Below are positions 891 to 53,474 of a stretch of 64,000 nucleotides of DNA, piece after piece. The position numbers and the translations under genes are program-made. Each line of letters opens with the position of its first letter. Position 1 is the stretch's first letter. The notes under the pieces are model-generated. The model searched no databases. It saw only the letters and a program-made list of their open reading frames with translations, and was not told the DNA's origin. The DNA is taken from contig JABDBC010000002.1 of assembly GCA_013288825.1 (NCBI GenBank), forward strand, positions 1 to 64,000. Direction: 5' to 3'. The DNA comes from Chlamydiota bacterium (GTDB taxonomy: Bacteria > Chlamydiota > Chlamydiia > Chlamydiales > Parachlamydiaceae).

Positions 891-916
891 ACTACCTACA
901 AGGTATGAAGTAGTAT

Positions 917-1450
917 CTGCCCATTACCCACAACCATTATCGGGGGCGGAATCCTCTATAGGTAATTGCAGAAGTGACCTGTGTTAAGGCCCGAAGGGCA
1001 GGCATTTCACAGCCCAGGTCAGAGCGAAGCGGAGGCCTGGGTTAGTCATGGTAAACATGGAGTCCTGAAAGGACGACATTTAAGTCGTGAACGAACCCCA
1101 TGTATCAGGCGAAGGGACATAAGGGACAAAGGACCTAAAGGACATAAGGGACGTAAGGGACCATAAGGGACAAAGGACATTTGTTGCAGCTGTCCTTTAC
1201 GTCCTTTGTCCTTTACGTCCTTTGTCCCTTACGTCCCTTATGTCCTTTACGTCCTTTGTCCTTTCTTCGGGTGCGTTCATGACTAAAATGTCGTCCTTTC
1301 AGGACTCCATGTGTACCATGACTAACCCAGGCCTCCGCTTCGCTCCGACCTGGGCTGTGAAATGCCTGCCCTTCGGGCCTTAACACAGGGCACTTCTGCA
1401 ATTGCCTCTAGAGGATTCCGCCCCCGATGATGGTTGTGGGTAATGGGCAG
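917..1450. repeat. Large nested palindrome (about 180-bp arms)
   Basis: The left arm begins CTGCCCATTACCCACAACC at 917 and its reverse complement ends at 1450. Both arms contain the GCCCGAAGGGC and CCTGGG-GCGAAGCGG blocks (about 985-1045 and 1330-1385). The centre (1111-1267) is a second, independent palindrome made of 9-bp GGAC repeats. Short ORFs inside are by-products of the symmetry. The element fills almost the whole gap between the two acidic protein genes, and no transposase is present. Confidence 0.9.
1111..1267. repeat. GGAC 9-bp repeat hairpin, copy 1 (nested)
   Basis: Tandem units of the form AAGGGACRT / AAAGGACRT run to about 1180, then turn into the reverse complement (TCCTTTACG / TCCCTTATG) up to 1267. 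The array sits in the loop of the larger 917-1450 palindrome. Seven other copies lie in the window. Confidence 0.9.
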
Positions 1451-1522
1451 ACCTAGGTATGATGTAACCATGTTTTTCAGGCTGAAAGCCTGACGTATAG
1501 CCATACGTCAGGCCGTTGGCCC
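1451..1522. repeat. REP-like pair without transposase
   Basis: CCTAGGTATG, then CAGGCTGAAAGCCTG-ACGTATAG, then the inverted half CCATACGTCAGGCCGTTGGCC. These are the same palindromic units that border the IS200-like transposase at 13.4-13.8 kb. This copy reads like both ends of that element joined with the gene missing: a solo REP pair, or an internally deleted element. It lies directly upstream of the gene that starts at 1557. Confidence 0.75.
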
Positions 1523-13137: not shown

Positions 13138-13160
13138 AAGCCTGACGTATAAAAGCCTAG

Positions 13161-13321
13161 TACACTGTAAGGTAAATCCGTCCAAGTAAAAACTTCGCGA
13201 AAGCTCCCGCGGTTGAACGATCGTAAGTCACCCAATATTAGCAATATGGGGTGACTTACGATCGATTCAACCCCGGGGCTTTGGCGGAGTTTTTACTGGC
13301 ACGGATTTACCTTACAGTGTA
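13161..13321. mobile_element. MITE with long terminal inverted repeats and CTAG duplication
   Basis: TACACTGTAAGGTAAATCCGT at the left is mirrored at the right end. The inverted similarity continues inward for about 75 bp with small interruptions, around an ATATTAGCAATAT-like centre. CTAG flanks both sides (13157-13160 and 13322-13325). Removing the 161 bp plus one CTAG restores AAAAGCCTAGGGCAACGCC, which is exactly what the intact right border of the surrounding element shows. The insertion is therefore later than the RAYT element. No coding capacity. Confidence 0.88.
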
Positions 13322-13395
13322 CTAGGGCAACGCCCTAGGTATGTCCAGAGTTAACTCTCAGGCTGAAAGCCTGATGTATAGTATACAAAATCATG

Positions 13396-13848
13396 CTAGT
13401 CCCAAAGATATCTCTCATCAAACGGAACCCGATTGAGTTGGAGAATCTTACGATATTCATCTTGGAAGGATTGAGTTTTGTGATGTTCCTTCTGGTTGGA
13501 AATATATGTTATAACTGCTCCATGCATGGACTCACTTACAGAAAATGCTCCATATCCTTTTTGCCAGGAGAAATCTCTATAATTTGTACCCTTTGTTTTG
13601 ATCCATTTTGACGAGTTTTTTTTGATTTCTTCTAGAAAGTCACTAATGGACAAAGTGCGTGGTAACGTAGCAAAGAGATGTACATGGTCAGCAATTCCTC
13701 CAATCTTATGCACGTAACTTCCACGGGATGCAACGATAGAAGTCATAAAAGCATATAGCTCAGGTTCAATAATATCGTCTATAAAAGGATGACGGTTTTT
13801 AGTGCTGAAGATAATATGTAAGAGTACGTTGGAGAGGGATTGTGACAT
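13396..13848 (-). CDS. tnpA: Y1 (HUH) transposase, IS200/RAYT type
   Basis: This single-strand DNA transposase of 150 residues matches the usual length of about 150. The HUH metal motif is GGIADHVHLF (His55, His57). The catalytic tyrosine is probably Tyr114 in AVITYISNQKEHH, and WQKGYGAFSV (about 95-104) is the conserved core. The C-terminal FQDEYRKILQLNRVPFDERYLWD is typical of the REP-associated/IS200-like subgroup. The frame is intact, so it may be active. REP-like palindromes on both sides fit the known partnership of RAYT proteins with REP sequences, and a related REP pair without a transposase lies at 1451-1522. Confidence 0.92.
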   Translation of the reverse strand: MSQSLSNVLLHIIFSTKNRHPFIDDIIEPELYAFMTSIVASRGSYVHKIGGIADHVHLFATLPRTLSISDFLEEIKKNSSKWIKTKGTNYRDFSWQKGYGAFSVSESMHGAVITYISNQKEHHKTQSFQDEYRKILQLNRVPFDERYLWD

Positions 13849-14068
13849 ATTTATTTCTCAGGTTGTGTTAGTGTTGGTGTTATGGTGTTTGGTTATGGTG
13901 TTGGTGTTATGGACTAAGATACATACGATTTCAAATTTAAATAGCACATCTCATCTTACTGAAATGGGATTTGTTTTGCATCAACTGTGTTTGCTATACG
14001 TCAGGCTTTCAGCCTGAAAATTAACTCTGGGCGTACCTAGGGCGTTGCCCTAGGCTTTTATACGTCAG

Positions 14069-14200
14069 GCCGTTGGCCTGGTGTGGAGGTCTCATGTTGC
14101 CGTTGGCCTGGTGTGGAGGTCTCATGTTGCCGTTGGCCTGGTGTGTATGCCTCATGTTGCCGTTGGCCTGGTGTGGATATCTCATGTTGCCGTTGGCCTG
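14069..14200. repeat. 30-bp tandem repeat, about 4.4 copies
   Basis: GCCGTTGGCCTGGTGTGGAG... (30 bp) is repeated at 14069, 14099, 14129 and 14159, with a partial copy at 14189-14200. Copies 3 and 4 have a few substitutions. Each unit begins with the GGCCGTTGGCCTG end of the REP element, so the array grew from the element's right edge. Short ORFs through it are artefacts of a period divisible by three. There are no spacers, so this is not CRISPR. Confidence 0.93.
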
Positions 14201-21244: not shown

Positions 21245-21488
21245 ATTTTTACCACAGAGAACACAGAGAGAGAAGAGGAGGGGAAAAGAAGGGATTAATA
21301 GAAAATTCAATGACTTATAATTCCCTCTGCGTCTCTGCGCCTCCCCGTCTCTGCGTTAATCATTATAACGAATTTAACGCAGAGACGGGGAGGCGCAGAG
21401 ACGCAGAGGGGATTAGAAGTCATTGAATTTTCTATCAATCTCTTCTTTTCCCCTCCCCTTCTCTCTCTGTGATCTCTGTGGTAAAAAA
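21245..21488. repeat. Nested palindrome: CACAGAGA arms around CTCTGCGTC arms
   Basis: The outer arms are TTTTTACCACAGAG...AGAGAGAAGAGGAGGGGAA (21246-21290) and their inverse (21443-21487). The middle arms are GATTRATAGAAAATTCAATGACTT. The inner arms are AATTCCCTCTGCGTCTCTGCG-CCTCCCCGTC. The centre is TTAATCATTATAACGAATTTAA. The whole gap between folD and hemF is this one structure. Confidence 0.93.
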
Positions 21489-27509: not shown

Positions 27510-27803
27510 ATAGTGCTCTTCGTGAACGCGCCCGAGCCCGTGCCCGACCCTCCCTTGCCGCACAATCTTTCGCAATAGTTTTTACCACAGAGATCACAGA
27601 GAGAAGAGGAGGGGAAGAAGAGAAAGTAACCGGATGTTAACATTATCCTTCATATCCTCCTCAGCATATCCTGCCACTTTTTCTACTCCTCTCCCTTCTC
27701 CTCTTCTCTCTGTGATCTCTGTGGTAAAAACTATTGCGAAAGATTGTGCGGCAAGGGAGGTTCGGGCGCGGGCTCGGCGCGGGAGCGTTCACGAAGAGCA
27801 CTA
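27510..27803. repeat. Nested palindrome between czcA and adaptor genes
   Basis: The outer arms are ATAGTGCTCTTCGTGAACGC / CGCGCCCGAGCCCG (27510-27560, inverse about 27757-27803). The middle arms are TTGCCGCACAATCTTTCGCAATAGTTTTTACCACAGAGATCACAGAGAG... (about 27555-27625 and inverse). The centre holds tacked-on GGATATGAAGG/ATCCTTCATATCC fragments. A further half copy of the CACAGAGA arm lies at 27825-27853. It separates two genes of one operon. Confidence 0.92.
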
Positions 27804-27866
27804 TCCTTCATATCCTGTTACTTCTTCTCTCTCTGTGATCTCTGTGGTAAAATATTATATCAATGA

Positions 27867-29082: not shown

Positions 29083-29326
29083 ATTAGGCTAATGAAGTAA
29101 ACATCTAAGAAGAAAAGTAACAGGATATGCAGGATCAGGCAGGATATGAAGGATAGCAAGTATCCTCCTGTCATTCAAAAGAATTTCCAATGGATCTAAG
29201 GCCGGGAGGCCTTAGATCCATTGGAAATTCTTTGTATATCAAGAGGATGCTTGCTATCCTTCGTATCCTGCCTGATCCTGCATATCCTGTTACTTTTCTT
29301 CTTAGATGTTTACTTCATTAGCCTGG
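29083..29326. repeat. Palindrome spanning the tolC-like 3' end
   Basis: The left arm ATTAGGCTAATGAAGTAAACATCTAAG...GGATATGCAGGATCAGGCAGGATATGAAGGATAGCAAG (29083-29160) is mirrored at about 29245-29326. An inner palindrome AAGAATTTCCAATGGATCTAAGGCC / GGCCTTAGATCCATTGGAAATTCTT is centred near 29203. The right arm contains the stop codon of the outer-membrane factor gene. Confidence 0.92.
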
Positions 29327-31928: not shown

Positions 31929-32025
31929 GCCGGGGACCTTGTGGAACGGAGCGGTCCGAACCAGGTCAGGACAGGAATGTAGCAGCCTTTAGGATGCGGT
32001 TTCGTGCCTCGAGACAATCTCCGGC
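31929..32025 (+). ncRNA. ffs: SRP RNA (small bacterial 4.5S type)
   Basis: The sequence contains the conserved Ffh-binding core: CCAGGTCAGG, then GGAA, then AGCAGCC (about 31960-31987). It is enclosed by pairing arms GCCGGGGA at the 5' end and TCTCCGGC at the 3' end, with further pairing between GGTCCG and CGGTTTCG-like segments. A T-run (TTTTTCTTTT) follows directly and serves as terminator. The length of about 97 nt fits the short bacterial form that lacks the Alu domain. A TATACT box lies about 12 nt upstream (31915-31920). Confidence 0.95.
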
Positions 32026-32034
32026 TTTTTCTTT

Positions 32035-40527: not shown

Positions 40528-40665
40528 AGGACAAAGGACAAGGGACCTAAAGGACATAAAGGACGTAAAGGACAAGGGACCTAAAGGACAATAAGTCATC
40601 TCTCATCGTCCTTTATGTCCCTTGTCCTTTACGTCCTTTATGTCCTTTAGGTCCCTTGTCCTTTT
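40525..40665. repeat. GGAC 9-bp repeat hairpin, copy 7
   Basis: AAAGGACAAAGGACAAGGGACC... and its inverse ending TTGTCCTTTTC. It fills the gap between dnaN and recF. Confidence 0.92.
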
Positions 40666-40688
40666 CTTTCACAACAACACATCTTCCT

Positions 40689-41756
40689 ATGTTATTGCGA
40701 TCTTTGACAGTATGCCGCTTTCGTTGCTATCACGAAGCCCACTTTGAATTCCAACCTGGCGTCAATTTGATCTGCGGACCCAACGCACGTGGAAAAACCT
40801 CCCTGCTAGAAGCCATCTACCTCCTCATCACTGGGCGCTCCTTCCGCGCATCCCAACTCAGCGACCTCATCAATCTCGGCAGCCAAAACTTTTATGTCGA
40901 AACAACCTTCATCAAACATGGCATCGAACAACGCCTCGCCTTTGGATACGATGGCAGAGAACGCAAAATCACTTACAATAGCACCTCAAGCAGTCAGACA
41001 TCCAATCTTTTGGGCATTCTACAAGGGGTCACCCTGACTCCCGACGACGCCAACCTGGTCAAAGGCAGTCCTGCAGGGCGCCGCCACTTCCTTGACCTCC
41101 AGATTGCACAAATGGACCCCTTATATGTGCATCATCTGACACGCTATCAGAGGGCAATGCGGCAGCGGAACTGTTTGCTGCGAGCCAAGTCGACAACAGC
41201 CATCGAAAGCTGGGAACAAGAACTTGCCAAAGCAGGGGCTTATGTGATCAAACAACGGGAGCGCACCATAGCCGATCTGCAAGGGCATATAAAGCAGTCC
41301 CAGCATGCTATAAGCGCACAGCTAGAAGAGATCAAGATGACATACAAGACCTCAACACCACTGCTCAATGGCATCGACGGGATCAGCGAACACCTCATGA
41401 CCCAATATCGAAAGCTGAGAAGCCGCGAGATGGCAATAGGAACCACATTGGTGGGTCCCCATAAGGATGATGTACTGATTTCATTAAGCGATAAAGAGAT
41501 TCGGACATTTGCAAGCGAAGGGCAGCAAAGAAGCTTTGTGATTGCATTGCGGATGGCAGAATGGCAGAGATTGCACCAGAGCGGATGCGAAAAAGAGCAA
41601 CCTTTAATGCTTTTGGACGATGTGGGGATGAGTTTGGATGCTGTGAGGAGGGAGAGGCTGTTGAGCAATCTTCCGCAGTTTGGGCAAGTCTTCGTGACTT
41701 CCACCGATGCAGGCTTTATCAATGATGCGCATGTGCATGTGATACCTCTTGAGTGA
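40689..41756 (+). CDS. recF: RecF recombination mediator ATPase
   Basis: SMC-like ABC ATPase that loads RecA at gapped DNA. 355 residues from ATG 40689 (MLLRSLTVCRFRCYHEA); the frame upstream is repeat code. Walker A is GPNARGKT (30-37). LTPDDANLVKGSPAGRRHFLD (about 118-138) is the family block after the arm. The signature region is FASEGQQRSFVIALRMAEW and Walker B is LMLLDDVGMSLDAVRRERLL (near 300-320; other RecF proteins often have a Glu pair around there). The 3' end (HVHVIPLE) is also present as a degenerate inverted copy at about 42008-42050. Confidence 0.94.
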   Translation: MLLRSLTVCRFRCYHEAHFEFQPGVNLICGPNARGKTSLLEAIYLLITGRSFRASQLSDLINLGSQNFYVETTFIKHGIEQRLAFGYDGRERKITYNSTSSSQTSNLLGILQGVTLTPDDANLVKGSPAGRRHFLDLQIAQMDPLYVHHLTRYQRAMRQRNCLLRAKSTTAIESWEQELAKAGAYVIKQRERTIADLQGHIKQSQHAISAQLEEIKMTYKTSTPLLNGIDGISEHLMTQYRKLRSREMAIGTTLVGPHKDDVLISLSDKEIRTFASEGQQRSFVIALRMAEWQRLHQSGCEKEQPLMLLDDVGMSLDAVRRERLLSNLPQFGQVFVTSTDAGFINDAHVHVIPLE

Positions 41757-42030
41757 AAGAGTTACAGGATATGCAGGATCAGGCAGGATAAGAAGGATAC
41801 CCATTTCGTGAACGCGCCCGAGCCCGAGCCCGACCTTCGCAAACCTCGTTTCCCGTTAATTCCCTCTGCGTCTCCCCGCCTCTGCGTCTCTGCGTTAAAT
41901 TCGTTATAATGATTAACGCAGAGACGGGGAGGCGGGGAGACGCAGAGGGAGGAGGTCGGGCGCGGGCGCGTTCACGAAAGGAGTATCCTGCATATCCTGT
42001 AACTCTTTCAGTCAAGAGGTATCACAAACA
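41740..42030. repeat. Triple nested palindrome after recF
   Basis: Outer arms: GATACCTCTTGAGTGAAAGAGTTACAGGATATGCAGGAT (from about 41740) and inverse (to about 42030). Middle arms: TTTCGTGAACGCGCCCGAGCCCGAGCCCGACC (41806-41835) and inverse (41951-41978). Inner arms: TCCCTCTGCGTCTCCCCGCCTCTGCG (41860-41890) and inverse (41925-41952). Centre: TTAAATTCGTTATAATGATTAA. Three families that occur alone elsewhere in the window are stacked here, and the recF stop codon is in the outer arm. Confidence 0.93.
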
Positions 42031-42056
42031 CATTCACAAGCCATCAATTCTATCCT

Positions 42057-44696
42057 TCATATCCTGCCTGATCCTGCATATCCTGTAACTCTTTCTTCTT
42101 TAAGATTTTGCACGCTAAAAGAGAGCTTTTTGTTGGCGTATTTTAACTCTACTATGCTCTTCGGCGGAATCTCGCCATCCAAAATACCCGTCGCTAACAT
42201 GTTCACAACCTCCTGCTGGATCAACCTCTTCAACGGACGCGCCCCAAAAAATGGATCATATCCCTCCTCCGCTAAATATGCCGACACCTTGTCATCCCAC
42301 TCCAGCTCAACCTCCCGCCCCCTCATTCTCTCTTTCAACTTCTTCAACTGAATCTTGACAATTTTCTCCATATCCTCTTTCTGCAATGGCAAAAATGGCA
42401 ATATGTCATCCAACCGATTGATAAATTCAGGCCTGAAATGACTCTTGATCACCGGATCCAACGTGGTCAAAATCACCTCTTTCGTCATCTTCACTCGTCC
42501 ATGCTCCATCTTCTGCAACAAAAGATCTGATCCCAAATTCGATGTCATGATAAACAACGCATTCTTACAATTAACCACCCGCCCCTTACTATCCGTTATC
42601 CGGCCATCATCAAAAATCTGCAGCAAAATATTAAACACATCAGGATGCGCCTTCTCCACTTCATCCAATAATACCACTGCATAAGGTCTGCGCCTCAATG
42701 TCTCGGTCAATTGTCCCCCCTCATCATATCCAACATAGCCCGGTGGCGACCCTATCAATTTGGATACACTATGCTTCTCCATGTACTCCGACATGTCAAG
42801 GCGCACCATTGCCTCCTCCTGATTGAACAACTGCTCCGCTAGTGCCTTCGCTAACTCGGTCTTTCCCACCCCTGTCGGCCCTAAAAATAAAAAGGCTCCA
42901 ATGGGTCTTCCTGGGTCTGATAATCCTGAGCGGGAACGGCGTATGGCTTCTGACACTGCTGTAATGGCAATCTCCTGCCCCACAACCCTCTTTTCAAGCT
43001 CTTTTTCAAGGTGCAGAAGGCGTTCTGCTTCCCCTTCCAACATCTTACTGACGGGGATGCCTGTCCATTTTGAGACGATGTGGGCGATCAAGTTCTCATC
43101 GACCTCTTCCTGGAGGAGTCTGTTGGGGCGCTCATTGAGTTTGGCTTCGGCTTCGACGATCTCTTTTTGGAGTTTTGGTATCGCGTTGTAGCGCAGTTCA
43201 GCGACCTTATTGTAGTCAGCTTTGCGCTCCTCTTCTTCTTCCTGGAACCGCAGTTGTTCGAACTTGTTTTTCTTTTCTTTTACTGTCTCAATGAGGGCTT
43301 TTTCTTGCTCCCACTGTTGTCTGAGTATGGCAAGCTCTTCGCGCAATTGTGAGATCTTTTTATTGAGCCTTTCCACTTCAGCATTTGCTGTGGGAGTGTT
43401 TTCCCGCCGAAGCGCCTCTTGTTCCACGATGAGACTGGCCATTTCCCGTTCTTTGGTATCGATTGGCAGAGGGCGGCTTCCCAGCTGCATCCGGATCAAA
43501 CTGGCGGCTTCGTCGATGAGGTCGATTGCCTTGTCGGGTAGTTGTCGATCGGTAATATAGCGATACGAAAGAAAAACAGCTGCATGGATGGCAGATTCCG
43601 TGATGCGCACCCCATGAAAGATCTCATATCGCTCGCGCAAGCCTCGCAAAATGGCTATCGAGTCCTCCAAGGAAGGCTCTGTGATCAATATTGTCTGAAA
43701 GCGCCGCTCTAGAGCAGCATCCTTTTCGATATGCTTTTGATACTCGCTGAGGGTGGTGGCTCCAATGCAATGGAGCGTTCCTCGCGCTAGAGCAGGTTTT
43801 AACAGGTTGGCGGCATCCATGGCGCCTTCGGAGGCTCCTGCGCCGACCAATGTATGGACCTCATCGATAAACAGGATGATTTGCCCTTCGCTTTTCTCGA
43901 TGTCGTTCAGGATACCTTTGAGGCGCTCTTCGAATTCTCCCCGATATTTGGTACCGGCGACCAATGACCCCATGTCTAAAGCGAGAATTTGCTTATTTTT
44001 TAGCGAATCGGGGACATCCCCTTGGATGATCCGTTGGGCCAGACCTTCTGCAATAGCGGTTTTTCCGACTCCAGGTTCGCCTATGAGCATCGGATTGTTT
44101 TTTGTGCGTCGACTCAAGACTTGCATGGTACGTCGGATCTCTTCATCGCGTCCGATGACCGGATCGAGTTTCCCTTGTTTGGCCAATGCTGTGAGATTTT
44201 TGCAATACTTTTTAAGTGTTTCAAGGCCCGATTCGGCACTTGGGGAATCCATATGGCGGTCTCCACGAATTTTCTTGATTTGCTCTTCTAACTGTTTGGT
44301 TGTAACACCAGTGGCACGTTTCCAAGCAGAGATCGGTTCGCCCCCATTTTCCCAGAATGATAAGAGGAAGTGGTCGGAGCTTGTGTAGGTGTCGTTGAAT
44401 CGTTTGGCGATATTCTGAGCGTCGGTAATGCGACTTTGCAGGCTTCGGGAAGGGTTTGGCGGCTGCGGAGGTCCCGAGTAGGTAGGAAGGCGGGCAACGG
44501 CATCTTTGACTTGTCGCTTGAGTTCGTTGGGATCTGTTTCGAGGTGGCTTAGAACGGAGTTGAAATAGCCATTGGGTTCTTGCAGGAATGCAAGGAGGAG
44601 GTGGTTTTCAGTGACTTCGGGGTTGTTGTGCTGCTGAGCGAGGGCAAAAGCTTTTTCTAAGGCTTCGGTGACAGAATCTGTAAAGTTTTGTGCCAT
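42057..44696 (-). CDS. clpB: ClpB disaggregase, with repeat-encoded tail
   Basis: Hsp104-class AAA+ disaggregase working with DnaK, 879 residues. N domain: [34 protein letters not shown]. First AAA+ domain: Walker A GEPGVGKT (about 206-213) and Walker [34 protein letters not shown]. Middle coiled-coil (about 405-525). Second AAA+ domain: Walker A GPTGVGKT (about 604-611), [34 protein letters not shown] and the sensor-2 [10 protein letters not shown]. The end, [12 protein letters not shown], is encoded by the GGATATGCAGGATCAGG repeat (42057-42090), so the native end is near VQNLKE. AAGGAG precedes ATG 44696. Corresponds to CT113 as I recall. Confidence 0.95.
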
Positions 44697-44781: not shown

Positions 44782-45060
44782 ATGGATGGAAAGGACAAAG
44801 GACAGAAAGGACATAAAGGACGTAAAGGACAAAGGACGTAAAGGACATAAAGGACGTAAAGGACATAAAGGACGTAAAGGACATAAGGGACGTAAAGGAC
44901 ATAAAGGACGTAAAGGACAAAGGACGTAAAGGACAAAGGACGTAAAGGACATAAGGGACATAAAGAACGATGCTTTGTCCCTTATGTCCTTTACGTCCCT
45001 TATGTCCTTTACGTCCTTTATGTCCTTTACGTCCTTTGTCCTTTATGTCCTTTCTTTCCA
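44782..45060. repeat. GGAC 9-bp repeat hairpin, copy 8 (longest)
   Basis: ATGGAAAGGACAAAGGACAG... followed by about 16 GGACRTAAA-type units up to about 44970, then the inverse ending CTTTCCAT. At about 280 bp it is the largest copy; unit number differs between the arms. It lies between the divergent clpB and giant-protein genes, and the rest of the gap (45061-45173) is AT-rich leader. Confidence 0.92.
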
Positions 45061-45173
45061 TTACTGCTCATTTACTAAGTTAACTAAACTGAAATAAATT
45101 ATTTTTATGTTGACAAACCACATAGTTTAAACAGCTTAAGCAATATTTTCTAAAAAAATTCATATAAATGCTA

Positions 45174-45251: not shown

Positions 45252-48200
45252 ATGAGTATAGGTAGTGAACCACCAATACGGCCCGGAGGAGACCTCCCGG
45301 ATATAAAAAGAGATGACACAGTTCCGCCTTTAGGAACTCCAGCTGCTGGAGCAGGCGCGCCTACCACATCTGAAGAAAAAACAGCCCTTGCCGCTTCACA
45401 ACGACCAACAACCACAGCTCCTTCCATTCACATTCCTTTCACAGCCAAAGCAACCTTAATCATAGGAAGCGCATGGAGGGCTGGTCTCAGACTTTTCCCA
45501 AAAAAAGAAAAAACTCAACTGACACAGACCATGGAAAAAATCATGAATTTAATTAATGCTCCAGCACCTGGGAAAGGCAAAGCAAAAACCGCAGCAGCAG
45601 GTACAACCACCGCCGACCTCCACTTACTGTCCCCCGCAGACAAAAAAGCCTTACTCGATTTAGTTGCCGAAATGCAAAAAGACATGTCTGAACTCGAAAA
45701 AACAGTGAGCGAAACAAGCATCACCGATGTCATGAAAAAATCAATCACATTAGGAAAACCCACTTTTATTTCTTATGCCGAAATTGGTGCGCATTATAAA
45801 ACTCGTTTAGAACGACTGGCTCAGCAAAAAGAAGAAAAAGCAATAGAAGCAAAGGGTAAAGCAGAAGAAGAGGGAAAACCACTGATTGGAAGAATACGCC
45901 CAGGAGCAAGTGCTTTAACACTTAAAACGTTAAGCAAAGACATTGGCGCCATCCTTGACAAGAATCTTAAAGCTTTAGACGACAAGGGTGATAAAGATGT
46001 TCGAGAATGCAAAGCTCTTGCTGCCAATATTTTAAAACAACTAAAAAAGACCAGAATCATAGAAGATAGATCAACACAAAAAACCAAGCGTGAAGATTCA
46101 ATGGCTATTACTGCAGCCTTACAAGGTGCCATTAAAGATAGGGATCTTCTAATGAGCAAACTCCGACGTCTAAAACATTCAAATCCTAAAAAACATCAAG
46201 AAATTGTCGAGAAAATCTATGTTCCCTTGAATAAAGAATTAAGCGACGCGAGGTTGCAAAGAGAGATATTAAGCATCGCCCAAACAGCAGTAGTACATTT
46301 ATTTGAAGAGACGAAAGAATACGGTAAGACTGGTGGTGCGAAGCGTTTAGAAAAGATGAGAGGTGAGGCGACTTTACTTATGACCGATCCAGAACTTATG
46401 AAAAAGCTAAAGGATAAGGAATTTAAGATAAGCCACGAGACTGAAATTGTAGTTACTCACACTGCCTCAGATATCAAAGAAGATATAACGGGCATTCGAG
46501 GCCTTACCGCAGAATATGGCCATCTCACAGCCAATCTACTCGAAATGTTCCGGGAGAGCGATGACATCGCTAATCCTGAAGAATTCGTAGCATGTAAAGA
46601 GCTCGCTAAAGAAGTCTGTGAAAATCTTGCTGCAGCTGCAAAAGCCAAGTCCAGAGGAACCGACTTCAGCGAACTTGCTCTTAAATCTCGCGAAGGCTTC
46701 CTCCGCTTACAAACAAAAATCGATGTTCTTAAAAAAGCAACACAGCTAAAACCTCCTTCCGCTTATGACAAAATGGTCTACGATCGCGTCATGAAAGAGA
46801 TCTACCAGCCCCTTGAAAAGACACTTCTTGCTTTCCACAAAGGGTCTGTCCACGACCCCGAAACTCTAATAAAAATGTCATTCCTTCCTCTCACCAGCAA
46901 TGAACGGGAACTATACAGAAGCCTTTTGAGCACGAGCACAAGGGGCGGCGTCGAAAGAGTTATATATCGGCCTCAAGGCTTTTTTGACAAACTTCTTCGT
47001 AGAGAACCTCCTGCTGCCCTTCGTGAGCCAACAAAACTATTCAACTCACTTCTAGCAGATGCATTGACGAGATTCGATACACGATCGGCTTTTCGCGAGC
47101 TCGGAAAGGTACACCGTCTCGAAACGAGACTGGGACTTGCAGGAGTACGGCTTGCACATCTAGATAAACCGGTAGCTCTAACTTACCATGACAAATACGC
47201 CGATATCGCCGAAGCTTCAAGCCATGTCTCCACTGTCTATGACGTCTCTAAAGACTTCTCACGCACTCCCCCTTCAAAAAAAGTTTTAGAGGCGGGCCCT
47301 CTCGATGTCTTTACTGAAGAAACTGCATTAACCCGCGCATTGCGCCTGACTCCCCATTCAAAAGAAATTGCAGAAGGCCTTGGATGGACCCCGACTCCAC
47401 TTGCGGCTGCACGTCTGATAAAAAGCAAAATGGCTTTAGAAAGGCTTTTGGTAAGGCTGCAGGCAAGAAAAGAGAAGTTGGATGAGCAGTTGGAGAACAG
47501 CGGAACAGTACCTTTGGATGAGATGTTTTACAGCGATTATGCGATGGTGGCCCATGCCGTTAAGCAAACAGGAGGTGCTCTCAAAGAAATTGACATAGCA
47601 GAAAGTAGAGCAACACGAACTCTTGAGGACGCGCTTAAATTGACTAAGGAAGACGAGGCTATGATTGAAGCAGGCATAAAACGTCCTGCTGATTATGGTG
47701 ATACAATAACAGTCGAAAGATATCAAACCGCCATACAGAAATTAGCAGCTGAAAGCTCTTTAGGCAATGTAGAAAGCAGAGAACGGCTGAAACAATTGAT
47801 TACATCTTTAGAAAGAAACTGTCCGAATTTACTACGTCGCATAAAAGAACATCGACCTACAGTAGAAGTGACACTGCAATACCCATCAGGCCCCTTCAAA
47901 CAGCCAATAACAATTGATCCTCGCATCTCAGAAATCATTGCAAAAGCCAAGGAAGTAACTGAGGGTCCTGTTGTGGACCATCTCAAATTTGTGACATTAG
48001 AACTAATTGACACTCACGGGAAATTGCGAGAGCTTTATGAAGATAAAAATGCGGCACACAATGTAGTAGGGGATCGAGAAAAGATAGTAAAGGCGTACCA
48101 GGCAGGCAACATAGACTCTGTCAAAACACTTGTAAAAGCACATTTGCTTGTAAGAGAGGGTATTTACCAAGAAGACCTCTTTCTAAGAGAAATGAGGCAA

Positions 48201-51200
48201 GATCCTGATGCCAGCCGAGCCATTGATGAAGCGCTGGACATGCTAAGACGTGAAGTTACCGAGCCTGTTGCGAGGACTAATGTCCAGATCGCCAGAGCAT
48301 TTATGGACCTTGCCAACAAATGTGAATCGCAAATCAGTAACGCAGTACGACAAATTGCAAGCTTTGATAAGCAGGTAGTTACTAAAGCTGCGACGCGAGA
48401 ACAATTAGAAACTCGACGAGAACTTGTTCTTATGGCAGAAGATGGACTCAAACAATTGGAAGAAATTGCTGCAAATTCCGCTGAGACACCTGAAGGAAAA
48501 GAATTTCGTGCTGCTGTAATGGCAAAATATAACTTGCAGTTGCAAGCTTTTGAACGGGTTCAATTTGGGGCTATTAGGACTCCAATACAAGCTCAATCTT
48601 ATATAGACCTTGTTAATTCATTTGAATCACAAGTCAAAGATTCACTAGAGCAAGTTAATATACTTGATGAGCAGATAGCCGCTAAGACAGCAACTCCAAA
48701 TCAGATCTCTGGTAGACCAGTCCTGCTTGGAGTCGCTTGGAAAGCGCTACAAAATCTGAAAGATACTGTTGCTCAGTTACCTATTGAGACCGCTACGGGA
48801 CAAGGGCTCTATTCTGCAATCATGAGAAAATATGCCACACAGTTGGAGGCATATAATAAAGTTCTCCATCCACCAGGACTACCGCAACCACAAGTCAGAA
48901 ATGATGCATTCTTTATAGCCGCACGTGAGGCCGCGGAGGGTTTGAGAACAGCTATAACAAATTTGGAAGGCGTGGGCCGATTTCATACTTCAGGGGTTGC
49001 TGCTCGATATATGTCTGATGCTGCAGTTACTCCAGATGAAATAGCGAAACATATTCACGGCATTAAAGCAGCTGGAAAGGTTTTAGAAGCAGAGATAATG
49101 CGCTTAGAAGAGGAGCTGCCAAAAACAAACCTATCAGACAGGGCTGCAGCCCTAAAGGAACTTGAAGGATTACGAGCTGAGTTTCGTACGATAACAGAAC
49201 GACACAATAAATATATCGATATTGCCTATCCCATCGATAGAGGTCTGTTGCGAAGAGTCGAAAGCGCCAAAACTCCGGGAGACTTTGCACGGCTAAGTGT
49301 GGAATTCGAGACCAAAGACATGCTAAAAGAAATCGTTGGTCAACTTGCAGCACGTGCGAGCACCTATTTATCAGCGGAAAGTCGATCAGAGGCGGCGTTC
49401 AGAGCAGCACTATTCCTGAACAGAGTGCAAATTATACTCCCTGTTAATGACCTTGCTGACATAGAAAAAGCAGTAAAAGGAATTACAAGTGAGTATAGGC
49501 CATCTCTATCACATAATGAAACAGCAATGGTCAGGGATCTGAATCAACAAGCACTTCAAGCGACTATGACGGGTACATTAACACCTGAAGCACTCGATGC
49601 CTTTAATACTAGAGATGCTAAACTGGTACAAAAATATAGAGACCTATTCATCAAACTATATGCTAACGCCAGAACCGAAGCAGAGCAAAAGCAATTTATA
49701 AATCTAACCTTCTACTTACAGACAAATCACCCCACGTTTTTAGCAAAAATGCTTGAAGATCCCCTTCTTAGTTCCATGCTTGCCAAAGGTCTAAATAAAG
49801 AGGGTGAAGAACTAAATTTAACAACAAGGCAGATAGCGGTTTTTGTCAACTTACAGCGCGCTATCGTTGACCGCGGGCTTACTCTGCAAAACGTAGATGT
49901 TCCTGATTCATTAGAACAAGCAATCAAACATCTTACCGTATTGGAAAAATTATCTATTGACAAGCCTACCACTGAAAATCTGGAAGCCTACAAGCAAATG
50001 TCCCAACTTTATTACGAATTAAACCGTCGGCACGGCTTAACAGATCTGTCGACAACCCATGTCGAAATTCTACAGATTTTGCGAAATTCTCCTGATGAAG
50101 GAACACACTTTGCGACAACGAAAATTATGGCGTTGCCTGGTGGACAAGAGGCACTTGTCAACTTAGAAAAAATATTAGCAGCCCGTGTGAGGGCTCCAGC
50201 TACCTTTGAGGAGAGAATTGCAAATCTGACAGATTTAAAGAGATTATATCAAGCTTATCCAAAACTCCTTCCAAAGCTTCCAGAATTTCCAGTTACAAAA
50301 ATTCATCCTGCAAATGCTGCAATTTTGGCTGCCATTGAAGTACAAACAGACCGGTCACCAAAAACTGTTGGTGAAGCTTTTGCTACAACCATGCGAACAA
50401 GGGTGGATGCGTCACTTGCAGAAAAGTTAAAGAGCGACAGAGAGTTTCTTGATCACCTCAATAATGTTTATTTACATCACCCAGATCTAATTGAGGTTTA
50501 CGAAAAAGGATATGGGACAGAAATAAATTTAAGGTTAGTACAAATCGGTACCGATTCCTCTTCACCTCTTAGTATCTTGGCTCGACAAGTAGCGATTCGA
50601 AGACAAATGAATGTAGCATTAAAAACCAATGCTTTTACTCCAGTTTTCATCGAAGAAATCCAACGACAATTTACACGGCTTCGAGAAGAGGAAGCGAAAG
50701 CAATGGTATCTGCCGCGGCAGCAATGACAACAACAGGAACGAGCCTCGCAAGACCTGCTCCTGCTGAACTCTTTGCAACATCAACTGACCTTCTTGAGGA
50801 GACCTTTACCCGAGAGCTCGAACGTACTGATCAATGGACTTTAAAACCTCTAGACACAAGAGTTTTAGCCAATATCAAAGCCAATCTCGCTGTTGTTAGA
50901 GAGTTGACAGATCGAATAAAGTACGGAGACAAATCACCAAAAACAGCAAATGAATTACAAAAAGCACAAAGAAAGGCAGCTGATTATCTGAAATCGAATG
51001 AGCAAAATGTCGCGAACTTGCTCCATCTTTTTGAAAGTCGAGCCATGTATGGCTATAGCACACTAGCAGCTGGAGATGAACTTCGCTTAGGAGCAGACAT
51101 TCACGAGCTCACTGACCAATTGGATGCGGCTGATCGATTGGTGGGTGCAAAACAAAAATGGACTTCGAGGGAGGCTTTTAAAGGTGTGAAAGGTCTTCAT

Positions 51201-53474
51201 GAAGCGTTCATGAAGACTGTGAAAGACCTTGGGAAGACCCCTTTCACACTAGCTCTTGCGGCTGAGTTTACGTTACGTGAAATGGAAGCTCCTTTCTTGA
51301 GACTCTGCGAGAAAACGCAAATAGACCCGATTGATCCAAAGCTCTCGCCAAAAGAACTCATGGAGACAGAACGCATCTGGCGAACCCTAAATGAAATACA
51401 AGTCAAGCTGCAAGCTGCAATGAAAATCAGTGAAGAAAATGACCCACACTTACCATACTTAGAAGCGGCTCAAGCCCGGATAGATCAATGGAGAGCTAAG
51501 CTCCCCATGGAATTCCGCTATCGGGATCATGGTACAGCTGCAGTTGCAGCCCGTGCTGCTGCTACAACGGAACCAAAACTAGAAGACTCCGGCGAATCAA
51601 AGCGAATGGGCTCAGAAGTAGATTCTAAACGAGGAGAAGAAAGAGTATCAGGGTTAGGATTGGGAGAAACGGCATTGCGTAACTTAAACTATTCGGCAAT
51701 AGTTGAAGCAAGGTCCAATCGTCGACTTTTAGATAATCACTTGGTAGAGCTGAGTAGAACTGATGACTCGGATCAAATAACACTTTTGATGAGTTCAATC
51801 GAAACTGATAAACAAACGATCAGAGAGGAGATGACACGCCTAAGCAGGGAAGGATTTAATATCGAACCTTACCGTCAAATTGTTGGATTTGACGAAGACG
51901 GCAATCGATACGGCTCTGAACCCTTTACTACCGATGCTCAAGCATTCGAACTAGAAGGTCCGGAAACTCCAAGGGAAGTTCCTCCAACTGAGCCCCGTGG
52001 AACAGAAACTGCTCCATCCACTTCGTCATCGTCATCGTCAAGCGCTCCTTCAGCGACTGCGGCTGCTACATCGCCACCGTTGCCTACGCAGCCGCCAGTA
52101 ACTGCAATGGCGCCACCTCGGATGCCAGGTACAGTCCATAGGCCGACCTCAGAGCCGGCAAGCGAATTTGAAAGAAAAACAAAAGGGAAGCCGGAATTAA
52201 CCCCTGGACTTGGTCTCGAACCCGCGAGAGCCGCTCCGACAAGAGCATCCGCTGTGCTTTCATTTAGACCTGGATCCCCAGCACAGATGACCGAATATTA
52301 TAATAAGACTATTCTAGAAACAAACACAAACCCCGACATCATACCCAAACGAATACTGGATTTAGAAAAAATGAGAACTAGTTATGGCGAAACTGCTGAC
52401 GAATCAATGATAGCTATATTACAACAAACAATCGATACTCTGAAAGCAAAGAAAAAGAAGCTGGAAAGTAGTTTAATACCAACTGCAGAAGTACATAAGG
52501 CTGAGTTTGACGCCAAAATAAAGGCTATCAGTATTGAGAAGGATGGAAAAATGCAAGCTGATCTCAGGACAGCCTATAAACAACAAAGACAACAGGTCCT
52601 GGAAGATCTGAGGCGCATTGGCGCAGCAGGATTTAATATACAACCGAGCCTTGAAATTCTTGGATTTGATTTAGAGGGCAACGCTATAGGCGAAACTAAG
52701 GAGGCTCGAGAAGGACAATTAATAAAAGCAGCACAATCCGTCAAGGCTTGGACGGATTGGTTTGTCGCAAATAGCGGTCGGGCAGATGAGAAAGAGCTAG
52801 AAGAACGAACAAGAGAATTTGAAGCCCTGAAACAAAACGCTTTAGCGGAACTGAATTTCTACCATGAAATGGGATTTGATGTAATCCCAAGCCTCAATAT
52901 TCTCGGATTTGATTTAGAGGGCAACACTCTTGTTAGGGCGCCAACTTCTCCTCCTACAACAGCTCCTTCGACAGCTGACGCCGCCACAGAAGCGGCAGCA
53001 CGAGCCATCGATGAAAAGAACTGGCCTAAAATTGAAGCGAACATCAAAGCCAACCCGAATTTAATACCCACTGCCATCAGATCTTTTAAGGAATTTCTAT
53101 CCTCTGGAGCCTCAGAAGCAAGTGCAATGGCCACCCAATGGGGAATCGCTCGTCTGGAAGCAATGAAAACGGCCGAAGAGCAACGCCTTAAAGTATGGGC
53201 AACTACGCAAAAAGCTAGCATGGATGAGATATTAGCGCGTATTACCAGGTCACCAGCTGGACAAGACAAAACTGATGCTTCGAATGAATATCTGGACCTA
53301 AGGAATCAAACAAAAAGTGAGCTACAAAAAAAAGGTAGCGAAGGGTTTGATATTTCCCAAAGCGCAGCAATACTCGGACTTGTCAGCCGGGATTTAGGGC
53401 CGGAATTGGGTGGTGAAATTTTGATCTATGAGGCAGATATTACACCACCAGTTACGCCATACCAATCCACATGA
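45252..53474 (+). CDS. Giant helical repeat-containing protein, 2740 aa
   Basis: No known domain is recognised. AGGGG precedes ATG 45252. A Pro/Thr/Ala-rich N terminus (1-60) leads into about 2100 residues that look almost wholly helical, rich in Lys/Glu/Ala/Leu, without signal peptide or clear membrane segment. A tandem pair of repeats of about 95 residues lies near 1015-1200 (CESQISNAVRQIASFDKQV... / FESQVKDSLEQVNILDEQI...). A Pro/Ser/Thr/Ala linker is near 2240-2300. The C-terminal part holds four copies of a unit of about 65-70 residues ending GFNIxPSxxILGFDLEGN (near 2198, 2460, 2540 and 2700; the fourth is degenerate). The size and layout suggest a scaffold or secreted protein. Function unknown; the coding call is firm (one open frame, good codon use). 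Confidence 0.88.
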   Translation: MSIGSEPPIRPGGDLPDIKRDDTVPPLGTPAAGAGAPTTSEEKTALAASQRPTTTAPSIHIPFTAKATLIIGSAWRAGLRLFPKKEKTQLTQTMEKIMNLINAPAPGKGKAKTAAAGTTTADLHLLSPADKKALLDLVAEMQKDMSELEKTVSETSITDVMKKSITLGKPTFISYAEIGAHYKTRLERLAQQKEEKAIEAKGKAEEEGKPLIGRIRPGASALTLKTLSKDIGAILDKNLKALDDKGDKDVRECKALAANILKQLKKTRIIEDRSTQKTKREDSMAITAALQGAIKDRDLLMSKLRRLKHSNPKKHQEIVEKIYVPLNKELSDARLQREILSIAQTAVVHLFEETKEYGKTGGAKRLEKMRGEATLLMTDPELMKKLKDKEFKISHETEIVVTHTASDIKEDITGIRGLTAEYGHLTANLLEMFRESDDIANPEEFVACKELAKEVCENLAAAAKAKSRGTDFSELALKSREGFLRLQTKIDVLKKATQLKPPSAYDKMVYDRVMKEIYQPLEKTLLAFHKGSVHDPETLIKMSFLPLTSNERELYRSLLSTSTRGGVERVIYRPQGFFDKLLRREPPAALREPTKLFNSLLADALTRFDTRSAFRELGKVHRLETRLGLAGVRLAHLDKPVALTYHDKYADIAEASSHVSTVYDVSKDFSRTPPSKKVLEAGPLDVFTEETALTRALRLTPHSKEIAEGLGWTPTPLAAARLIKSKMALERLLVRLQARKEKLDEQLENSGTVPLDEMFYSDYAMVAHAVKQTGGALKEIDIAESRATRTLEDALKLTKEDEAMIEAGIKRPADYGDTITVERYQTAIQKLAAESSLGNVESRERLKQLITSLERNCPNLLRRIKEHRPTVEVTLQYPSGPFKQPITIDPRISEIIAKAKEVTEGPVVDHLKFVTLELIDTHGKLRELYEDKNAAHNVVGDREKIVKAYQAGNIDSVKTLVKAHLLVREGIYQEDLFLREMRQDPDASRAIDEALDMLRREVTEPVARTNVQIARAFMDLANKCESQISNAVRQIASFDKQVVTKAATREQLETRRELVLMAEDGLKQLEEIAANSAETPEGKEFRAAVMAKYNLQLQAFERVQFGAIRTPIQAQSYIDLVNSFESQVKDSLEQVNILDEQIAAKTATPNQISGRPVLLGVAWKALQNLKDTVAQLPIETATGQGLYSAIMRKYATQLEAYNKVLHPPGLPQPQVRNDAFFIAAREAAEGLRTAITNLEGVGRFHTSGVAARYMSDAAVTPDEIAKHIHGIKAAGKVLEAEIMRLEEELPKTNLSDRAAALKELEGLRAEFRTITERHNKYIDIAYPIDRGLLRRVESAKTPGDFARLSVEFETKDMLKEIVGQLAARASTYLSAESRSEAAFRAALFLNRVQIILPVNDLADIEKAVKGITSEYRPSLSHNETAMVRDLNQQALQATMTGTLTPEALDAFNTRDAKLVQKYRDLFIKLYANARTEAEQKQFINLTFYLQTNHPTFLAKMLEDPLLSSMLAKGLNKEGEELNLTTRQIAVFVNLQRAIVDRGLTLQNVDVPDSLEQAIKHLTVLEKLSIDKPTTENLEAYKQMSQLYYELNRRHGLTDLSTTHVEILQILRNSPDEGTHFATTKIMALPGGQEALVNLEKILAARVRAPATFEERIANLTDLKRLYQAYPKLLPKLPEFPVTKIHPANAAILAAIEVQTDRSPKTVGEAFATTMRTRVDASLAEKLKSDREFLDHLNNVYLHHPDLIEVYEKGYGTEINLRLVQIGTDSSSPLSILARQVAIRRQMNVALKTNAFTPVFIEEIQRQFTRLREEEAKAMVSAAAAMTTTGTSLARPAPAELFATSTDLLEETFTRELERTDQWTLKPLDTRVLANIKANLAVVRELTDRIKYGDKSPKTANELQKAQRKAADYLKSNEQNVANLLHLFESRAMYGYSTLAAGDELRLGADIHELTDQLDAADRLVGAKQKWTSREAFKGVKGLHEAFMKTVKDLGKTPFTLALAAEFTLREMEAPFLRLCEKTQIDPIDPKLSPKELMETERIWRTLNEIQVKLQAAMKISEENDPHLPYLEAAQARIDQWRAKLPMEFRYRDHGTAAVAARAAATTEPKLEDSGESKRMGSEVDSKRGEERVSGLGLGETALRNLNYSAIVEARSNRRLLDNHLVELSRTDDSDQITLLMSSIETDKQTIREEMTRLSREGFNIEPYRQIVGFDEDGNRYGSEPFTTDAQAFELEGPETPREVPPTEPRGTETAPSTSSSSSSSAPSATAAATSPPLPTQPPVTAMAPPRMPGTVHRPTSEPASEFERKTKGKPELTPGLGLEPARAAPTRASAVLSFRPGSPAQMTEYYNKTILETNTNPDIIPKRILDLEKMRTSYGETADESMIAILQQTIDTLKAKKKKLESSLIPTAEVHKAEFDAKIKAISIEKDGKMQADLRTAYKQQRQQVLEDLRRIGAAGFNIQPSLEILGFDLEGNAIGETKEAREGQLIKAAQSVKAWTDWFVANSGRADEKELEERTREFEALKQNALAELNFYHEMGFDVIPSLNILGFDLEGNTLVRAPTSPPTTAPSTADAATEAAARAIDEKNWPKIEANIKANPNLIPTAIRSFKEFLSSGASEASAMATQWGIARLEAMKTAEEQRLKVWATTQKASMDEILARITRSPAGQDKTDASNEYLDLRNQTKSELQKKGSEGFDISQSAAILGLVSRDLGPELGGEILIYEADITPPVTPYQST

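Follow-up and report, generated by a model that had tools for sequence, protein, structure and literature searches.

Three dispersed palindrome families make up a nested mosaic between recF and clpB in a Chlamydiota genome

Described palindromic elements and the recF–clpB site

Together with MITEs, the closest described systems to the palindromes reported here are the REP and REPIN sequences, which occur with RAYT or IS200/IS605-type Y1 transposases (PMC3733652, PMC8266576, PMC3116915). Like REPs and REPINs, our palindromes are small, gene-less and dispersed in intergenic DNA at high copy number (about 45 places for the family that we call C and at least 42 pairs for the family A), though they are longer than REPs; Y1 transposase genes lie beside some of them, and CGTC-tagged palindromes occur here as well. 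They differ from REPs and REPINs in their much greater length (100-600 bp), in the many unrelated families carried by one genome and in being nested coaxially up to three deep. The CGTC tag precedes AGGC palindromes at the Y1 gene of the window, and by reading only, neither it nor the GTAG tag was noticed on A or C.

MITEs and several other known systems also resemble these palindromes in part. REPs are targets of the insertion sequences IS1397, ISKpn1 and IS621 (PMC1525189), and here too a palindrome serves as the target of another mobile element, but what inserts is another hairpin, and a multi-shell palindrome results. MITEs, which are non-autonomous elements of the DDE type, have inverted ends and target duplications, as does an element that we call S-C-S (8-bp duplications); unlike a MITE, the S-C-S core also occupies the tips of other palindromes by itself, with neither ends nor duplication. 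In the human Xq27.1 palindrome, insertions near the centre have been explained by hairpin extrusion and breakage (PMC6489244). Breakpoints in our data are likewise close to the palindrome centre, but Xq27.1 is a single human locus with large unrelated inserts, whereas the inserts here are hairpins that recur in a bacterium. Finally, concerted evolution of palindrome arms (PMC6649704, PMC3723533) and quasipalindrome template switching (PMC7202029, PMC3820800) describe arms that stay similar while their sequence changes, with template switching or gene conversion proposed as the route; the elements here behave alike but are small, dispersed, intergenic and bacterial, with mirrored module junctions. 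The parts are of known kinds, while multi-shell nesting with mirrored arms is a variant that we have not found described in bacteria: in the limited literature searched, whether for nested palindromes or for palindromic repeats of chlamydiae, the combination was not described.

The window, by which we mean the whole stretch of 64,000 nt analysed, covers positions 1 to 64,000 (forward strand) of contig JABDBC010000002.1 from Chlamydiota bacterium GCA_013288825.1, an assembly of 2.6 Mb in 141 contigs (92% complete). The source genome is taken to be that of an environmental Chlamydiota member, judging from its RecF, for which the sole named close relative found is that of a Parachlamydiaceae MAG (54% identity). 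The nearest genomes used for comparison are other genera of the same family.

The nested site lies between a convergent gene pair, with recF on the left (40656-41756, + strand; NCBIfam TIGR00611, 333.7 bits) and clpB on the right (42057-44696, − strand; NCBIfam TIGR03346, 1233 bits). Three palindrome families, each dispersed in the genome, form a mosaic there, namely an A shell, an E shell and a CTCTGCG hairpin that belongs to C. The outer shell A (GGATATGCAGGAT) has its left arm at 41738-41799 (+; inverted repeats I1 and I3) and two right arms on the − strand, the first of which (41985-42038) is shortened by about 20 nt of outer-family sequence, while the second (42051-42095) matches 41755-41799 at 98% (I3). 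The GGATATGCAGGAT arm pair formed with the first right arm extends over 54 nt (41726-41779 / 41985-42038; I1, 91%). The middle shell E (CGTGAACGCGCCCGAGCCC) has its left arm at 41805-41838 (+; I2) and its right arm at 41956-41978 (−; from module reading), within a CGCGCCCGAGCCC arm pair at 41784-41838 / 41945-41999 (82%); the E module also occurs at 27519 and at another locus, L092. The inner hairpin C (CTCTGCGTC) spans 41857-41950, with arms at 41861-41898 / 41913-41950 (I4, 95%), and is found at about 45 places in the genome with 84-98% identity. Elsewhere this hairpin forms the core of S-C-S. Around the 41857-41950 core, S ends and a target duplication are absent, so that only the core is common to both, and this copy would not itself be classed as a MITE insertion.

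The first-pass annotation had placed three nested families at 41740-42030 on a single axis. All three arm pairs are present at 41726-42095 in the order that it gave, with A outside, E in the middle and C inside, but the shared axis is only approximate: the axes lie at 41882 for A (41925 if its second right arm is used instead), 41891.5 for E and 41905.5 for C, differing by 14-43 nt overall, and coaxiality at this site holds only to about 14-20 nt. On the left, about 19 nt that separate the middle shell from the inner one lack a counterpart. No Rfam family is found at the nested site; the only match in the window is a bacterial small SRP RNA gene at 31929-32028 (RF00169).

The last codons and stop of recF fall inside the outer sequence of A, and the 3' end of clpB falls inside the second right A arm. 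Since both gene ends extend into the outer palindrome, it provides the stop codons of both genes. We considered that the mirrored recF end could be copied coding DNA, and dropped this reading as the same outer sequence (ACCTCT..AAGAAAAGTAACAGG) is present in other A copies; the element itself therefore gives recF its stop codon.

Nesting across the genome and insertion in loops

Similar nesting had been noted at three further places in the window (917-1450, 21245-21488 and 27510-27803), and each proves to be an enclosure of one family by another. An H shell encloses B at 916-1451 (arms 95%), a D shell encloses C at 21246-21487 (arms 95%), with S reduced to a few bases on both sides, and an E shell encloses D at 27510-27804, as seen from inverted-repeat calls and module reading. 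The GGATAT words in the centre of this last site are not an inverted pair. At 29086-29324, an A shell carries its usual core, a1, at the tip (arms 94%). A B-family palindrome at 44806-45062 adjoins a 2740-aa open frame (45252-53474) with no Pfam match.

Concentric inverted repeats are a real, genome-wide pattern. Together, the window and twenty further stretches of 20 kb amount to 464 kb, some 18% of the genome, and targeted loci were studied in addition. In these 464 kb, a detector that requires exact arm cover of 25 nt or more finds 105 palindromes, compared with none in a triplet-shuffled control. The palindromes are mostly intergenic and cover about 29% of the non-coding DNA sampled. When folded, 98 are unbranched and 7 branched, with a detector that favours the unbranched form. 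Among the relatives, 11 carry at least two palindromes in the 10-40 kb sampled from each, and many carry none.

With a module library made by hand (A, B, C, D, E, F and others), most sites read as mirror-symmetric strings. The recF–clpB site reads A-E-C-C-E-A, locus L038 reads A-a1-C-C-a1-A and locus L110 reads M-A-L-L-A-M, and further strings include D-F-F-D, D-W-W-D and E-D-D-E. The order of shells varies: E encloses D at 27510, and D in turn encloses C at 21246. In 35 mirrored enclosing pairs, which are partly non-independent as A with a1 is a common composite, the median axis shift is 2.5 nt (21 within 5 nt, 24 within 10 nt and 31 within 25 nt). None of the enclosing cases in the module survey has the string expected from insertion into a stem, and the rule of centred nesting, proposed from the window, thus holds genome-wide. 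In 39 further cases, the outer family is present on one side only. A boundary-based test for off-centre nesting gave no information, as nested shells align as a single palindrome.

Evidence on insertion comes from S-C-S, whose ends are GGCTATTGGTTTAA and most of whose copies measure 165-196 bp. Perfect 8-bp duplications (CAAATTTC, AACTTTCA, CTTAGTTG, TACTTGAG and AAATTGCT) bound five independent copies that lie in plain DNA, and S-C-S thereby shows the inverted ends and fixed-length target duplication of a MITE. Among the matches listed in this 92% complete genome, no pair of S ends is spaced and oriented like a transposase-bearing element. Full-length copies also lie in the loops of D hairpins, where the duplications are mostly degraded to 6 or 7 of 8 positions. 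Some 4 of 10 independent insertions, as judged by hand, fall in palindrome loops, which make up 6.2% of non-coding DNA (p 0.002), whereas no excess is left when palindromes in their full extent (29%) are the reference (p 0.32). Since the excess vanishes in this second comparison, the data favour loops over stems and not palindromes over other non-coding DNA.

The A hairpin carries many unrelated tips within the source genome, and its tips (7-80 nt) are again unrelated in other genera and in further families within the order; in one locus from another family (L220), a CGCAGAG hairpin sits in the tip of an A hairpin. Together with the S-C-S copies in D loops, this lends partial support to insertion at the hairpin tip, as first suggested for the window. 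D and A hairpins are also found with no inner module. Core-less A hairpins are unsafe as proof of a state before insertion, as deletion between AGGAT repeats gives the same product. A search for the A hairpin in plasmids gave no match, and the A arm motif GGATCGCAAGCGGCAGGAT has an exact match in two IMG/VR contigs (L223, 4055-4073, and L224, 2441-2459).

Mirrored arms and Y1 transposase genes

The arms of these palindromes evolve in concert. Across 42 A copies, the two arms within a copy differ by 3.7%, compared with 9.5% between left and right arms of different copies (p 5e-5 in a permutation test that treats copies as independent), and the C and F families differ in the same direction. In the 32 nt beyond A, identity is 80% within copies versus 65% between them, and the signal stops about 64 nt out. 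A 5-nt indel (CAGG versus CGCAAGCGG) is nearly always in the same state in both arms, with one mixed copy (L173), and some changes are one-sided (L028 and L173). Junctions are mirrored as well: in C copies whose S ends are cut back equally, 5/6 are mirrored, compared with 3/18 of those cut back unequally (p 0.007), where the copy at window 21322 was put in the equal group by hand after the sequence was read, the script's left value having overrun the junction. Equal cut-back with mirrored junctions is explained by one event copied to the other arm and not by two identical independent events. The first-pass annotation had argued that insertions falling at random would need to strike the centre on every occasion. 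This argument fails, as arms are homogenised within a copy and junctions are mirrored; a one-sided event looks just as centred once the other arm has taken it over, and centred nesting is therefore no proof of repeated central hits.

The first-pass annotation had suggested looking for an enzyme that targets hairpin tips, and the same window holds a candidate assigned from its sequence, a 150-aa IS200-type Y1 (HUH) transposase encoded at 13396-13848 (− strand; PF01797, 85.5 bits; NF033573, 63.4 bits). Both profiles are over their cut-offs, and the gene has the Y1 domain with the HUH motif (HVH) and catalytic tyrosine (YISNQ) of the IS200/IS605 family. An inverted repeat with AGGCTTTCAGCCTGA palindromes surrounds it (13322-13387 / 13988-14053; I15, 89%). 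Palindrome V (13156-13326, 171 bp, arms 86%) adjoins the gene on one side, and AGGC..GCCT palindromes that flank the gene within 13322-14080 are CGTC-tagged on the right (ATACGTCAGGC); none of the IS200-type genes examined in an earlier study was flanked by CGTC units (PMC3733652). A tandem array of approximately 40-bp units (GTTGCCGTTGGCCTGGTGTGGAGGTCTCAT) at 14080-14200 adjoins the element. At two other loci (L102, 10820-11309, and L111, 11673-12025), palindromes enclose sequence resembling the 3' end of this gene, and these palindromes are apparently non-autonomous Y1 derivatives.

The source genome has four Y1 genes, all adjoining palindrome modules. One (in L103) has T palindromes on both sides, another is followed by an F palindrome, and a Y1 pseudogene in L201 is preceded by H, the outer shell at window 916-1451. 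No Y1 gene was found with A or C on its flanks. In the relatives, a palindrome lies within 500 bp of 4/6 Y1 loci versus 4/26 RecF loci, and genomes with Y1 genes have 1.98 palindromes per 20 kb versus 0.34 in those with none (p 0.0008, uncorrected for kinship). Two genomes (G014 and G022) have Y1 genes and no palindromes in the sample. In two other relatives (G011 and G008), the arms of a long palindrome flank the Y1 gene (L138, 1275-2126, and L139, 1250-2159), which looks like cargo of the loop. Hairpins are recognised by Y1 enzymes, whose substrate is single-stranded (PMC8266576), which makes a hairpin loop a natural target, and we infer that these enzymes may mobilise the palindrome families studied here.

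Explanations for centred nesting

We think it probable, if far from certain, that two processes jointly account for centred nesting. The site would be built of palindromic mobile elements, dispersed and non-autonomous, that have come to lie where the 3' ends of recF and clpB face each other. Mobile hairpins would settle in loops of hairpins already present in preference to their stems, carried in at least one case by a MITE (S-C-S, with its 8-bp duplications) and in other families probably by single-strand IS200-type Y1 transposases. The two arms of each palindrome would also be copied repeatedly onto each other, possibly through template switching at the fork or repair in an extruded stem, and such copying would make one-sided substitutions, indels and module junctions appear on both arms.

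Either process might be invoked alone. A loop-seeking transposase that adds each palindrome with no copying of arms would account for S-C-S in D loops, for different tips on one outer hairpin and for small axis shifts; we consider it unlikely as the whole explanation, since it leaves unexplained the greater likeness of arms within copies and the equal S cut-back with mirrored junctions. Those same concerted arms and mirrored junctions are what would follow if an element landed near a hairpin and snap-back synthesis copied its flank, so that palindromes grew outward from the inner hairpin, and inverted duplications are known to arise through templated foldback (PMC11724301). The outer shells, however, are dispersed palindromes themselves and are found with no inner module, and S-C-S lies in D loops with remnants of its duplication, which makes mirroring by itself quite improbable.

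Selection could also maintain arm complementarity, for example if a long RNA or DNA stem served as a two-way terminator between convergent genes, where palindromes are indeed commoner (30/69, compared with 69/278 elsewhere; p 0.003). Gene 3' ends are also the least harmful place for an insertion, however, and termination does not need multi-shell nesting. G-U mismatches between arms are not in excess over A-C (25 versus 32 in tandem contexts and 55 versus 57 overall), an argument against RNA pairing as the driving force; with no Rfam family at the site, we regard selection for a stem as a poor candidate. An origin in chimeric inverted copies made during assembly or amplification might be suspected in a fragmented assembly of this kind, but the arms differ by 4-20%, the same families, with target duplications, turn up again at unrelated positions and many separate genomes contain palindromes of a similar kind, so that an artefact is extremely improbable.

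We suggest tentatively, as something possible but doubtful, that hairpins in this lineage exchange tips as units: extruded stems would be cut and rejoined or copied by a polymerase, both arms would change in one step, and multi-shell palindromes would grow and diversify from their tips, fed by single-strand (Y1) transposition into loops.

Long palindromes are usually unstable in bacteria. No SbcD match over the curated cut-off was found in any genome examined, and absence of SbcD, a weak negative result, might explain the tolerance of palindromes. Loss of SbcCD as a cause specific to the source genome is unsupported, as the relatives are likewise below the cut-off. In the present genome, palindromes occupy more than a quarter of the non-coding DNA sampled, with nesting up to three deep. 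How loops attract insertions and how arms are kept alike are questions so far studied mostly at single loci, and the many shells and copies within one genome offer a system for both.
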